Made by a program: the position numbers and the translations under genes. Positions 40,972 to 47,153 of a stretch of DNA of 64,000 nt are shown here, in pieces. How positions within the stretch are numbered: the stretch's first letter is position 1; the number at the start of each line of letters is the position of its first letter. The stretch comes from Ornithinimicrobium cerasi (GTDB lineage: Bacteria; Actinomycetota; Actinomycetes; Actinomycetales; Dermatophilaceae): the NCBI RefSeq assembly GCF_003702705.1, contig NZ_QZMN01000004.1, positions 124,001 to 188,000 on the forward strand. The letters run 5' to 3'. The notes beneath the pieces were generated by a model. It did not search any database. It was not told the origin of the DNA and was given only the letters and a program-made list of their open reading frames with translations.

Positions 40972-41021
40972 GCAGGACGCCCGTCCCGGGGTGCGTGGCC
41001 GTGCCGTCCGGTCGCCGAGCC

Positions 41022-41912
41022 TCAGTCGCCGACCGTGTCCCGCGCGCGCTTGACCAGGCGCGGGTCGGGGCGCAGGACGACGTCGTGGTCCTTGCCGTCG
41101 TACTCGAACCGGCTGAGGAAGTGACGCATCGCGTTGATCCGCGCCCGCTTCTTGTCGTTGCTCTTGATCGTGGTCCACGGCGCCCAGTCGCTGTCCGTGC
41201 GGCGGAACATCTCCTCCTTGGCCGCCCCGTAGTCCTCCCAGCGGTCCAGCGACTCCAGGTCCATCGGCGAGAGCTTCCACTGCCGCACCGGGTCGAGCTG
41301 GCGGATGGCGAACCTCGTCCGCTGCTCGGTCTGCGTGACCGAGAACCAGAACTTGGTGATCGAGACGCCGTCGTCGACGAGCATCTTCTCGAACAGCGGA
41401 GCCTGCTCCATGAACAGCTCGTACTCCGCGTCGGAGCAGAACCCCATGACGCGCTCCACCCCGGCCCGGTTGTACCAGCTGCGGTCCAGGAGCACGATCT
41501 CCCCGGAGGTGGGCAGGTGCTGGACGTAGCGCTGGAAGTACCACTGCCCGGCCTCGACCTCGGTGGGGCGGTTCAGCGCCACCACCCGCGCGCCCCGGGG
41601 GTTGAGGTGTTCGGTGAACCGCTTGATCGAGCCACCCTTGCCGGCGGCGTCGCGCCCCTCGAAGACCATGAGGTGGCGCGTCCCGTTGTCCTTGGCCCAG
41701 TACTGGAACTTCAGCAGCTCCACCTGCAGCAGCCACTTCTCGACCTCGTAGTAGTCCCGGGTCATCCGCTCGGCGTAGGGGTAGTCCTCGCGCCAGGTGT
41801 CGACCGCCCGCCCCTCGGGCGTGATGAGGTCGGGGTCGGACCCCTGGTCGTCCCGGACCGTGTACCCCTCGGTCCGGAGGTGGTCGATGTATTCGCGGAG
41901 GCGCTGCTGCAC
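41022..41912 (-). CDS. ppk2: Polyphosphate kinase 2
   Basis: A 296-residue PPK2 enzyme, which transfers phosphate between polyphosphate and nucleoside di- or triphosphates. Walker A GRDAAGKGG is near residues 86-94, the lid/Walker B region DRSWYNRAG near 142, and TKFWFSVTQTEQ RTRF-type segment near 190. Single-domain length indicates class I or III; which nucleotide is used cannot be told. The GTG at 41912 is chosen since all other in-frame starts would run into the divergent hemW gene. It is a single-gene unit. Confidence 0.9.
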   Translation of the reverse strand: MQQRLREYIDHLRTEGYTVRDDQGSDPDLITPEGRAVDTWREDYPYAERMTRDYYEVEKWLLQVELLKFQYWAKDNGTRHLMVFEGRDAAGKGGSIKRFTEHLNPRGARVVALNRPTEVEAGQWYFQRYVQHLPTSGEIVLLDRSWYNRAGVERVMGFCSDAEYELFMEQAPLFEKMLVDDGVSITKFWFSVTQTEQRTRFAIRQLDPVRQWKLSPMDLESLDRWEDYGAAKEEMFRRTDSDWAPWTTIKSNDKKRARINAMRHFLSRFEYDGKDHDVVLRPDPRLVKRARDTVGD

Positions 41913-41989
41913 GCGGTCGACAGTATCGCGCCGGTGGAGACGGCCGGCGGACGAGATGGGACTGCGGCGCGGGGTGGGAGACTGGCGGT

Positions 41990-43237
41990 ATGCCGTCCGC
42001 GTTCCCTCCCGGAGACCCCGCCCCGGCCGACGGCTCGCTCCCCGCGTCCGCGCTCTCCGGTATGCCGTCACGCACCTTCTCGGTGTACGTGCACGTGCCT
42101 TTCTGCCGGGTGCGGTGCGGCTACTGCGACTTCAACACCTACACCCTGCCCGAGCTGGGGGAGGGAGCACCGGCGGTCGGCGCGGTGCCCGGTCTCATGG
42201 GCGCCTTCTTCGAGGCGGCGCAGGCCGAGCTGCGGCTCGCCGGCGGGGTGCTCTCGGAGGGGGCGCCCCCGGCGGCCGGCACCGTGTTCTTCGGGGGCGG
42301 GACCCCGACCATGCTCCCGCCCGAGGTGCTGGGGGAGCTGCTCGACGGCATACGCGGGCAGTGGGGACTGCGGCCGGACGCGGAGGTGACGACCGAGGCC
42401 AACCCCGACACGATCACCCCGCAGGTGGCGGAGTCCCTCGCGGCGCAGGGCTTCACGCGGGTGAGTCTGGGGATGCAGTCGGCGGTCCCGCACGTCCTGC
42501 GCACCCTCGACCGCACCCACGACCCCGCGAACGTGGCGCAGGCCGTGGGTGCGCTGCGCGCGGCCGGGCTGCAGGTGAGCCTCGACCTCATCTACGGCAC
42601 GCCCGGGGAGTCGCTGCCGGACTGGCGCCGAAGCCTCGACGCGGTCGCGGAGCTGGCGCCGGACCACGTCTCCGCCTACGCCCTCGTCGTCGAGGAGGGC
42701 ACCCGGATGGCCGCGCAGGTGCGGCGGGGGGAGCTGCCGGCGCCGCAGGACGACGACGAGGCGGACAAGTACGAGCTCGCCGACGAGGTGCTCGCGAGCC
42801 TCGGCTACGCGTGGTACGAGATCTCCAACTGGGCCCGGGACCCCGGCGCCGCGTGCCGCCACAACCTGGCCTACTGGCGCGGCGGGGACTGGTGGGGGAT
42901 CGGCCCCGGGGCGCACAGCCACGTCGGTGGCGTGCGCTGGTGGAACGTCCGGCACCCGCGGGCCTACGCCGACCGGCTGGCCGGGGGTGCGAGCCCGGCG
43001 CACGCGCGGGAGAGCCTCGACGACGGTCAGCGGCACGACGAGCTCGTGCTCCTGGGGTCCCGGCTGGCGGAGGGCCTGGCCCTGGACGTCCTGACCGGTC
43101 CGGGGCGCCGGGCCGTGGCCGGGCTGATCGCGGAGGGGCTGGTCGACGGCACGCAGGCGGTCCGGGGACGGGTCGTGCTCACCCTGCGCGGACGGCTGCT
43201 GGCGGACACGGTCGTCCACCGCCTCCTCGCGGCCTGA
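41990..43237 (+). CDS. hemW: Radical SAM heme chaperone HemW
   Basis: A 415-residue radical SAM protein related to HemN. The cluster cysteines are 39, 43 and 46 in FCRVRCGYCDF, and the VFFGGGTPTMLPPEVL segment is conserved. HemW binds heme and helps insert it into respiratory enzymes; it lacks HemN oxidase activity in characterised cases. A second in-frame ATG (42062) also follows GGT and would still keep the core domain. Its usual actinobacterial neighbours, lepA upstream and hrcA-dnaJ downstream, are both present but separated by other genes. Confidence 0.92.
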   Translation: MPSAFPPGDPAPADGSLPASALSGMPSRTFSVYVHVPFCRVRCGYCDFNTYTLPELGEGAPAVGAVPGLMGAFFEAAQAELRLAGGVLSEGAPPAAGTVFFGGGTPTMLPPEVLGELLDGIRGQWGLRPDAEVTTEANPDTITPQVAESLAAQGFTRVSLGMQSAVPHVLRTLDRTHDPANVAQAVGALRAAGLQVSLDLIYGTPGESLPDWRRSLDAVAELAPDHVSAYALVVEEGTRMAAQVRRGELPAPQDDDEADKYELADEVLASLGYAWYEISNWARDPGAACRHNLAYWRGGDWWGIGPGAHSHVGGVRWWNVRHPRAYADRLAGGASPAHARESLDDGQRHDELVLLGSRLAEGLALDVLTGPGRRAVAGLIAEGLVDGTQAVRGRVVLTLRGRLLADTVVHRLLAA

Positions 43238-43692
43238 GCGGCCGCCGCGCGGGCCACGACGCCCGCCCGGTCCGCAGTCGGACGACACGCCACGGTGCTG
43301 ACGCGTCCCGACGTCCCGGCGCGGTAGAACGGGCTGAGTGCCTGCCGGGTATGAGCCGGCAGGCGCTGACGCGTCCCGGACAGAGGTGTGGCCCGTCCCG
43401 CGAAGTATGAGTTCGCGGGTCGGGCCACACGACCAGTCGTGATGCCGCTGGACGGCCGCACAGGTGCCGGAGGCTCGAACCCGGCATCAACGGGCGGTTC
43501 CCGGATCCACGGCGCGGACGTCATGGGCGGTTCATCGAATCCTCGACAAGTCTTGCGACCCGTCTCCACGAGGGAGGCGTACCGACCGTTCTACTCCTGT
43601 GCCGGGCCCCGCGCAAGAGGCCTGGCAGAAAAACTGCGACGGCCAGGCGTGTCGCGCTTGACTCACCGGGCCGTCAGGGTCGTGATGGGATC
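43238..43692. other. 455-bp gene-free spacer with hairpin repeats
   Basis: No convincing gene on either strand. The first 190 bases hold two repeat units with hairpins (listed separately). The remaining part is less GC-rich (43530-43610), contains two copies of GGGCGGTTC (43492-43500 and 43525-43533) and a GCCTGGC/GCCAGGC inverted repeat (43620-43626 with 43642-43648) enclosing AGAAAAAC. It lies between convergent hemW and DUF4870 genes, so some of these hairpins may act as terminators. Confidence 0.6.
43297..43430. repeat. Two tandem units: GCTGACGCGTCCCG plus a hairpin with GTATGAG loop
   Basis: The 14-mer GCTGACGCGTCCCG occurs at 43297-43310 and 43365-43378. Each copy is followed by a hairpin whose 7-nt loop is GTATGAG: unit 1 has a 9-bp stem (43340-43348 with 43356-43364); unit 2 has an 18-bp stem with a single T/T mismatch (43386-43404 with 43412-43430). 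The stems differ in sequence but the loops are identical, which points to selection on the folded form. Confidence 0.8.
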
Positions 43693-44244
43693 TCAGCTGA
43701 GGATGCGGATCTGCCAGGGGTAGGTGTAGACCTCGCCGTTGCTGGCCTTCATCGCGCCCTTGATGTGCATCCAGAGCTGCACGACGAAGAGCACGATCCA
43801 GATCGGGATGGCCCAGATGAGGCCGATGCCGAGGGTGATGATCACGCTGATCCAGGTCACCACCGAGGCGATCGTCATCATGATGTTGAAGTTGAAGGCG
43901 CCGGCCGCCGCGGTGCGCACCGCCGGGCTGCGGTCCTTGTAGAACAGCCACACGAGCAGCGGGCCGAGGAAGGGCAGCCACGCCCCGGAGACGAGGAAGG
44001 ACACCGGTGCGGACAGGTGCGCGATCAGCATCATCGTGCGCTCCTCCCCACCAGCACCTCCGGCGCCGGAGCCCTGCGGGCCACCGGGCTGGTAGCCGCC
44101 GGCGGGCCATCCCTGGCCGGGGGCGCCCTGGGGGGAGGCGCCCTGGTAGCCGCCCTGCAGGGGGCCGGGGGGCGGGGGTACGGCCCCCGGACGCTGCGGG
44201 TCGGTGCTGTCGTAGGGCCGGTCGTCGTGGCCGGGCTGGGTCAT
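43693..44244 (-). CDS. DUF4870-domain membrane protein
   Basis: A 183-residue protein. The first 70 residues are Pro/Gly/Gln-rich and disordered; the rest has three to four hydrophobic helices with LIAHLSAPVSFLVSGAWLPF, VRTAAAGAFNFNIMMTIASV and IKGAMKASNGEVYTYPW, the pattern of DUF4870 (Tic20-like) proteins. Function is unknown. It follows the DUF3097 gene after about 18 bases on the same strand and is probably co-transcribed with it. This pair commonly sits between hemW and hrcA in actinobacteria. Confidence 0.82.
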   Translation of the reverse strand: MTQPGHDDRPYDSTDPQRPGAVPPPPGPLQGGYQGASPQGAPGQGWPAGGYQPGGPQGSGAGGAGGEERTMMLIAHLSAPVSFLVSGAWLPFLGPLLVWLFYKDRSPAVRTAAAGAFNFNIMMTIASVVTWISVIITLGIGLIWAIPIWIVLFVVQLWMHIKGAMKASNGEVYTYPWQIRILS

Positions 44245-44263
44245 GGTGGGTCCCTCCTGCTGG

Positions 44264-45127
44264 TCATGGAACGGTGACGAAGTCGATCAGCTCTTCGACG
44301 CTGGCGAGCAGCGTGGGTTCCAGGTCACTGTAGGAACGCACGGAGGCCAGGATCTTCTTCCATCCCAGGGCCACGTCGGTCTGGGTGCGGTGCGGCCACC
44401 CCAGCTCCTGCAGCACACCGTGCTTCCAGGAGCGACCCCGCTCGATGACCGGCCACGCCTCGACCCCGAGGCGCGCCGGCTTCACCGACTGCCAGACGTC
44501 CACGTACGGGTGACCCAGGATCCGCACGTGCGGGCTCACCCGACGCGCCTCGTCGACGATGCGCGTCTCCTTGGTCCCCGGGACCAGGTGGTCCACGAGG
44601 ATGCCGAGCCGCCGCTGCGGGGTCGGCCCGAACCCGCGGATGAGCTCGCTCACGTCGTCCACGCCGTCCAGCATCTCGACCACGACCCCCTCGACGCGCA
44701 GGTCGTCCCCCCACACCTTCTCCACGAGCTCCGCGTCGTGCTTGCCCTCGACCCAGATCCGGGATCCGCTCGCGACCCGTGCCGGCTGCCCCGCGACCCG
44801 CACGGAACCGCTCGCCGTCCTCGCCGCGGCCTGCTGCGCGGCCTGCACCTGCGCGCGCCGCTCCGCCGTGGGTACGGTGAGGTTCACCGGTCGCCCGTCG
44901 AGGTGGAACCCGGGACCGAGGGGGAACCCCCTGACCCTGCCGCGGCGGTCCTCGAGGTGGACCACGTGCATGCCCCCGGCCTTCTCCACGCGCACCACGG
45001 CGCCGACCCAGCCGGTCCCGACGTCCTCGACGACGGTGCCGGGCACCGCCTCGACGTCCGTCGCCCGCCCGCGCCGGGGCGCCCGCCAGTCGCCGTCCAG
45101 CACGTCTGTCCCATACCTGTCACCCAC
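44264..45127 (-). CDS. DUF3097 protein, possibly TOPRIM-like
   Basis: A 287-residue actinobacterial protein of unknown function. The start RYGTDVLDGDWRAPRRG is typical of DUF3097. The middle part reads RIWVEGKHDAELVEKVWG, then EMLDGVDDVSELI, then LGILVDHLVPGTKETRI: an acidic E...DGxDD...DH layout that resembles TOPRIM domains of RNase M5 and DnaG. That is my inference from the motif order. The GTG at 45127 gives the normal N-terminus for the family. Operon with the DUF4870 gene. Confidence 0.78.
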   Translation of the reverse strand: MGDRYGTDVLDGDWRAPRRGRATDVEAVPGTVVEDVGTGWVGAVVRVEKAGGMHVVHLEDRRGRVRGFPLGPGFHLDGRPVNLTVPTAERRAQVQAAQQAAARTASGSVRVAGQPARVASGSRIWVEGKHDAELVEKVWGDDLRVEGVVVEMLDGVDDVSELIRGFGPTPQRRLGILVDHLVPGTKETRIVDEARRVSPHVRILGHPYVDVWQSVKPARLGVEAWPVIERGRSWKHGVLQELGWPHRTQTDVALGWKKILASVRSYSDLEPTLLASVEELIDFVTVP

Positions 45128-45252
45128 GGTCGTCGAGGGTATGCCGCGGGGCGGCTGGGACGGGTGAGGCTCGCGGGGCGGCCGCGCGATCCTCCCCCGT
45201 GACGGGCCGGAACGGCCTCGTCGTCGAGCGCTGCCCCTGGCTCTGAGGGCAC

Positions 45253-45383
45253 GCAGATGAATCCACGTCGAGCAACGTCGACGATGCCAGCCCCGGTGGA
45301 TTCCGCTGCACCTCACGCACCGTGCAGCGAGATCCCCTGCATGCATCCCCGACGGCGGCCTCACCGGTGGATTCCGCTGCACC
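45253..45383. repeat. Cluster of four copies of a GCAGCGGAATCCACC-type element
   Basis: The 20-mer CCGGTGGATTCCGCTGCACC occurs twice without mismatch (45293-45312 and 45364-45383). Related copies in the opposite orientation are GCAGATGAATCCACG (45253-45267) and GTGCAGCGAGATCCC (45322-45336). The orientation alternates along the array. It begins one base beyond the stop codon of the DUF559-like remnant. Confidence 0.75.
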
Positions 45384-45384
45384 C

Positions 45385-45745
45385 TCATCCCACACGGGAC
45401 CTGGCCTGCGCCCGGGCGATGGCCGCGAGGATCTTCTGCCTGACCAGCCGCGGGTGGGCGAGGTCGGACCAGGTCAGCCGTACCACCTCCTACCCAAGGT
45501 CCCGGATCTGATCCTCCCTGCGCTTCTCGGCGAGCAGGTCGGCCGGGCCCGTGTACTTCGTCGTGGCGTCGAACTCCACGATCACATCGTGGTCCGCCAA
45601 CGTGAGATCGACGACACCGTAGAGGGTCGCGCCGTCCCTTACCTCGAACTGCGGCACAGCCTGACCGAAGCCCAGGAGGTGCAGCAGCCAGCGCGACCGG
45701 CTCTCGCCCACCGACTGGCTTCGCGGGCCGGCGCGCCCCGCGGGA
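45385..45745 (-). pseudogene. Broken DUF559-type endonuclease-domain gene (C-terminal fragment with in-frame TAG)
   Basis: Reverse-strand reading gives a 120-codon fragment: ESRSRWLLHLLGFGQ, FEVRDGATLYGVVDLTLAD, VIVEFDATTKYTGP, LLAEKRREDQIRDLG, then a TAG (45490-45492), then EVVRLTWSDLAHPRLVRQKI and a natural stop at 45385. The order E-x-D, VEFD, EKRRED, LG-x-EVVRLTW is that of the PD-(D/E)xK-like DUF559 domain found at the C-terminus of AbiEi-like proteins in actinobacteria. The usual residue at the TAG position is an aromatic one (LGYEVVR/LGWxVVR). The N-terminal half is absent: the fragment begins directly at the fumC stop. It is therefore a decayed remnant. Confidence 0.75.
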
Positions 45746-45746
45746 T

Positions 45747-47153
<1,407 letters not shown>

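Follow-up and report, generated by a model that had tools for sequence, protein, structure and literature searches.

A predicted minus-strand small RNA with CUCAUAC-loop hairpins at its 3' end beside hemW in Ornithinimicrobium cerasi, and its candidate homologues among actinobacteria

The window analysed in this work is a stretch of 64,000 nucleotides of Ornithinimicrobium cerasi DNA, and all positions below refer to it. The region of interest follows hemW, a gene of the plus strand ending at 43237, and the neighbouring genes belong to the Radical SAM/hemW-like, DUF4870, DUF3097 and PPK2 families. By direct reading of the window, the 14-mer GCTGACGCGTCCCG is present in two exact copies (43297-43310 and 43365-43378), and two inverted repeats close loops that read GTATGAG on the plus strand (43349-43355 and 43405-43411). 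The arms of the first stem, GCCTGCCGG/CCGGCAGGC, form 9 bp, or 12 bp counting wobble pairs, and the second stem has 18 bp with one mismatch. The first-pass annotation had described two hairpins with identical 7-nt loops, each behind the same 14-mer, and coordinates and exact copies agree with that description. The computed folding energy of the segment 43290-43440 is -93.9 kcal/mol (z -6.2), a value as low being reached by none of 200 shuffles. The features of the locus, with the RNA placed on the strand argued for below, are the following:

43284..43291, no strand assigned: GACACGCC motif, past the predicted 3' end of the RNA, kept across the genus
43297..43310, no strand assigned: 14-mer copy 1, species-specific (exact-copy reading and search of relatives)
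43340..43364, minus strand: hairpin 1, which repeats the loop in an additional 3' hairpin seen in the genus of the window (direct reading and aligned relatives)
43365..43378, no strand assigned: 14-mer copy 2, species-specific (exact-copy reading and search of relatives)
43387..43429, minus strand: hairpin 2, a terminator-type 3' hairpin whose 18-bp stem contains one mismatch and whose loop reads CTCATAC on the minus and GTATGAG on the plus strand (direct reading, fold and covariation)
43433..43451, minus strand: hairpin P3, the other side of the predicted loop-loop contact with P5, the loops of the window pairing at 5 of 6 positions (pair counts, weaker in the wider test)
43480..43494, minus strand: hairpin P5, one side of the predicted loop-loop contact (pair counts in 19 genus sequences)
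43561..43579, minus strand: 5' hairpin (CGCCTCCC..GGAGACG), covarying in 28 and in 75 sequences
about 43580 to 43385 (after hairpin 2) or to about 43338 (after hairpin 1), minus strand: predicted small RNA, with predicted ends and a start set by the promoter position; the promoter/5'-hairpin model detects homologues in 29 of the 32 genomes of the genus
43588..43593, minus strand: -10 box TAGAAC, separated from the -35 box by 17 bases; spacing of 17 or 18 in 73 of 75 copies, partly favoured by the models
43611..43616, minus strand: -35 box TTGCGC, its TTG kept across the aligned copies
43646..43653, no strand assigned: GGCGTGTC motif upstream of the promoter, a half-palindrome in many relatives, degenerate here

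The hairpins had been tentatively related to a small structured RNA, to a protein- or recombinase-recognised DNA hairpin or to a REP-like mobile element. GTATGAG occurs at 42 sites in the own genome (3.83 Mb in 87 contigs), all of which were inspected, and only the two in the window are flanked by at least eight uninterrupted pairs. The dispersal proper to REP/RAYT-type elements, with many short palindromes per genome, is thus not seen, as only two such hairpins occur among the 42 loop matches. Collections of plasmids and of phages gave no match to the module (one copy was searched against each), and the copies encountered in other genomes are whole modules of the predicted RNA gene; the REP-like or recombinase-related reading was therefore dropped. 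Short open reading frames starting at the ATG of the loop were likewise discarded, their frames not being conserved when read by eye, as was a link of the RNA with transposon genes, since the neighbouring genes are ordinary. The combined pattern of 14-mer and GTATGAG was recovered in one of the 59 genomes searched, that of the window alone; thus the 14-mer, although exact and present twice as first reported, is a species-specific duplication lying outside the conserved unit.

The conserved unit itself is considerably more widespread. A DNA search with 43240-43560 gave matches with E below 1e-11 in 19 of the 32 genus genomes, and in the aligned genus loci two hairpins recur with the same loop and other stems, hairpin 2 being general and hairpin 1 an addition of the genus. 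The proposed search for further GTATGAG-loop hairpins with covarying stems was therefore successful in relatives, but not elsewhere in the own genome. A scan of named genomes yielded 13 stretches, corresponding to five Serinicoccus, six Ornithinimicrobium, one Actinomycetales MAG and one Anaerolineae MAG, the last of which we take for a chance match. The far module, i.e., the promoter and 5' hairpin, was modelled from 28 sequences (R2) and from 75 copies (R3). R2 matches 29 of the 32 genus genomes, with up to five matches in one genome; in the family, 94 of 187 genomes had a best E of 0.01 or lower (counted by hand from the listing), and 122 of 187 are reached at E up to 0.5, many of those by chance. 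At E of 0.01 or lower, R3 was matched in 40 of 396 order-sampled and 60 of 394 class-sampled genomes. The loop lies within 420 bases on the expected side at 22 of 43 order/class loci, is absent from 10, and at the remaining 11 the pattern was not placed.

The surroundings of the module are variable. In Ornithinimicrobium sediminis it sits between different genes than in relatives, and the gene has therefore moved. In the genus of the window it lies behind hemW, and in several other genera (L163, L164, L165, L188, L199) a copy lies ahead of a hemW-like gene. Two copies are found near each other in several genomes (L172, L176, L168, L169, L170, L163), either as tandem copies separated by 200-400 bp, or 3 kb from each other on opposite strands, flanking genes for a proteasome activator and an IclR regulator.

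Regarding structure, the core formed by hairpin 2, the two inner hairpins, their loop contact and a small helix is paired in 93.0% of the cells of 19 genus sequences; 19 of its 37 pairs are changed on both sides, and its covariation score was reached by none of 500 shuffles. The inner loop contact reads GUGAUG/CAUCAC in most members of the genus and GUGACG/CGUCAC in others, and in a wider set the loops could pair in 65 of 85 copies, where shuffles gave 37.7 on average and at most 48; this is supportive, with a high background. The arms of 80 hairpins of the wider set are paired at 91.8% of 14 positions, vs. 59.6% (largest 63.5%) when arms were re-dealt among copies; the search for these hairpins demanded a TATGA or G[TC]ATG[AG]G core, and the constancy of their loop is partly by construction. 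With no loop condition, the strongest hairpin downstream of the promoter carries a CAU tip in 90 of the 99 loci with promoter and hairpin (112 loci given), although the choice among several promoter candidates per locus prefers known loops. CAU is absent from the other nine top hairpins, and variant loops found beyond the family read CGCAUAC, CGCUUAC and CUGAUGC. In this sense, the early suggestion that fold and loop are selected stands, the stems varying by covariation around a kept loop, and this combination also supports a candidate small structured RNA. A supposed “closing helix” joining GACACGCC and GGCGTGTC was dropped: in several relatives its downstream half is paired with the sequence next to it, and the two halves vary independently.

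The direction of reading assumed at first, with the RNA on the plus strand, was reversed by the promoter pattern of the other strand. Of 75 aligned copies, 73 show the pattern TTGnnn-17/18-TAnA on the minus strand and none shows it on the plus strand (mononucleotide shuffles: mean 0.72, largest 3). The models R1-R3 were derived from genus sequences in plus-strand orientation, which the alignments share, and the spacing of the matches is thus partly favoured by the models. Two boxes 16-18 bp apart, as in sigma-70 promoters, are accordingly found on the minus strand in 73 of the 75 copies, and the invariant pieces CAAG and TNTCTA of the far module, as written on the plus strand, correspond to the TTG and TAnA boxes of the opposite strand. 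Furthermore, the segment 11-20 bases upstream of the -35 box is 60% AT, other bins ranging from 27 to 39%. The portion labelled “3' domain” under the plus-strand reading thus becomes promoter plus 5' hairpin. Because this TTG/TAnA pattern sits on the minus strand, the RNA is most likely encoded there, which would place the hairpins at its 3' end with CUCAUAC as their loop. The RNA so predicted, which would be convergent with hemW, folds at -95.4 kcal/mol (z -3.0), an energy as low being obtained for 3 of 200 shuffles.

Signals other than the promoter pattern are mixed. Of the features of an intrinsic terminator, the GC-rich hairpin is present, and in the 97 copies compared it is followed by a weak tail, T-rich as read on the minus strand and A-rich on the plus. 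The hairpin of the window is not followed by five consecutive T, and a standard scan (consensus, 9 of 12 matches) called neither promoter nor terminator there. Counts of G-U vs. A-C cells favour the minus strand in the hairpin (23:34), P3 (1:7), the loop contact (1:4) and P5 (3:9). In the two helices of A6 (54:18) and in P4, a small helix (22:1), they favour the plus strand; on the minus strand the P4 helix of A2 is doubtful, as it rests on U-G pairs.

Many copies carry repeated, in-phase boxes similar to TTGTCCACA/TTATCCACA upstream of the promoter. Allowing one mismatch, a mean of 2.2 DnaA boxes was found in the 250 bp upstream of the promoter at 40 placed order/class loci, vs. 0.028 in control bins; L223, L227 and L232, in which the motif was not placed, were left out of the 43 loci. 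At least two boxes are present at 28 of these 40 loci, and at least one in 23 of 47 family copies. They are spaced by about 20-21 or 10-11 bases after an AT-rich stretch, the last one being inverted; the same kinds of box occur between dnaA and dnaN in one relative (DnaA and DnaN identified by Pfam), and module loci are among the few DnaA-box clusters of the scanned genomes, among the matches listed. The window copy has no DnaA box within 43000-44500; it and other hemW-linked copies show GGCGTGTC motifs where the arrays sit in relatives, and the RNA part is kept without boxes. A palindrome GGCGTGTC-N3-10-GACACGCC also occurs in 30 of the 32 genus genomes, at one or two places each (e.g., G000:C7:77236-77257). 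In the own genome it adjoins an operon distant from the RNA (L085), and in one relative a stretch close to the second palindrome locus matched Ms_AS-4 of Rfam (L087, 2123-2204; 75 bits against a threshold of 50).

The locus was also compared with databases and described systems. Rfam 15 gave nothing at the gathering threshold for 41000-46000 on both strands, the one chance-level match being mir-9456 (23.8 bits against 80), and 20 of the 40 loci L163-L202 gave three matches, all under threshold. The literature searched, with partial coverage, held no description of this RNA family nor of a link between DnaA boxes and a small RNA. Clusters of several DnaA boxes outside oriC are known from datA, DARS and other loci, and the arrays found here resemble them in this respect; unlike them, they lie upstream of a predicted RNA promoter, and the RNA persists where they are missing. 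U-turn antisense RNAs have a recognition loop with a YUNR sequence, and the hairpin loop described here likewise starts with YUNR (CUCA). Ms1 RNAs are characterized by a 6S-like long bulged hairpin. Ms1 is an actinobacterial RNA of a few hundred nucleotides, widespread, and binds core RNA polymerase (PMC9130861); the family proposed here is similar in host group, size and breadth. The neighbours named there are a HAD-IB hydrolase, CpaE, phosphoserine phosphatase and hexosaminidase (PMC9130861). None of these types was found at the window or in the 30 proteins examined around 26 class-level loci, and an assignment to Ms1 is not supported by gene neighbourhood. CoRP of Corynebacterium, a large structured RNA obtained by RNA polymerase pull-down, is located among tRNA genes and restricted to its genus, within only part of the actinobacteria (PMC11077062); the present family shares with it a structured RNA in actinobacteria, but is spread over the class and has other neighbours.

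Taken together, we consider it reasonably probable that a non-coding RNA gene of the minus strand ends in the two hairpins of the window, arranged in tandem as terminator-type 3' hairpins, that copies elsewhere are probably controlled by DnaA, and that the loop may act in trans. The promoter pattern, covarying stems, near-constant loop, class-wide spread and box array are read from the sequences; transcription is what we infer from them. A sigma-70-type promoter, TTGCGC-17-TAGAAC, would drive the gene from behind an AT-rich stretch, giving an RNA of about 195-245 nt that would start near 43580, open with a short hairpin, continue with two inner hairpins able to make a loop-loop contact, and end in one (relatives) or two (genus of the window) long GC-rich hairpins with the loop CUCAUAC. 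DnaA probably binds the array and controls those members that have it, since members elsewhere carry it upstream of the promoter; the window copy would have lost the array or never had one. CUCAUAC, which combines a YUNR (U-turn) start with the layout of a methionine anticodon loop, may be the recognition element, and our best guess is a U-turn, anticodon-like seed pairing in trans with GUAUGAG-type sites, e.g., around start codons; a loop bound by proteins, or a decoy of the anticodon, would be the alternatives. A strict start-codon filter was passed by 9 of the 42 own GTATGAG sites (no control set), and one own site (L035, 301-307) starts an open frame whose beginning presumably reads like ParB. 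A more ambitious proposal, rather unlikely at present, is that class-wide small RNAs with promoters wired to DnaA arrays and a CUCAUAC loop resembling the methionine anticodon could couple replication-initiation potential to the translation of mRNAs whose start regions are of the GUAUGAG type.

Several other explanations were weighed against this one. The hairpins might simply be terminators, ending hemW on the plus strand and any transcripts of the minus strand, with a constant loop lacking a function of its own. Their position 100-190 bases past the end of hemW, facing a convergent promoter, and their long, GC-rich stems suit this well; nonetheless, we hold it for fairly improbable, as the loop is kept while the stem changes across many families and unrelated neighbours, and is accompanied by a promoter, a 5' hairpin and inner hairpins. 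It is also unlikely that the locus is chromosomal DnaA-binding DNA of the datA or secondary-origin kind, in which the array would do the work and the RNA would mainly open or mark the DNA. The box enrichment at 28 of the 40 loci, the regular spacing with an inverted last box, and the place of module loci among the few box clusters in scanned genomes (among the matches listed) would fit, but the window and other hemW-linked copies retain the RNA part without boxes, at least one box being present in 23 of 47 family copies.

Quite unlikely in our view is a decoy function, with CUCAUAC mimicking the methionine anticodon loop (CAU at 34-36) for proteins that read tRNA anticodon loops. Its length and order match the layout C32-U33-CAU-A37-C38, and the CAU tip counted above agrees with it, as do the loop length of 7 nt, U33 and the constant anticodon in the window and most copies. 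The stems, however, have 14-18 bp instead of 5, and the pattern is broken in several families, CGCAUAC and CGCUUAC disrupting either U33 or the anticodon. An RNA of the plus strand starting ahead of hairpin 1 seems least credible and very improbable: a -10-like TAGAAC at 43325-43330 on that strand and the G-U cells of the A6 helices and P4 speak for it, but none of 75 rows of the far module shows the promoter pattern on the plus strand, no common -10/-35 precedes the hairpin in 97 copies, and only a minus-strand reading accounts for the unvarying parts of the far module as promoter boxes.

If the minus-strand gene is transcribed, an RNA family absent from the RNA-family library would be present in many actinobacterial families. 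Its loop, near-constant while the stem drifts, makes a recognition function directly testable, and the DnaA-box arrays before many copies would link the control of replication to a small RNA.
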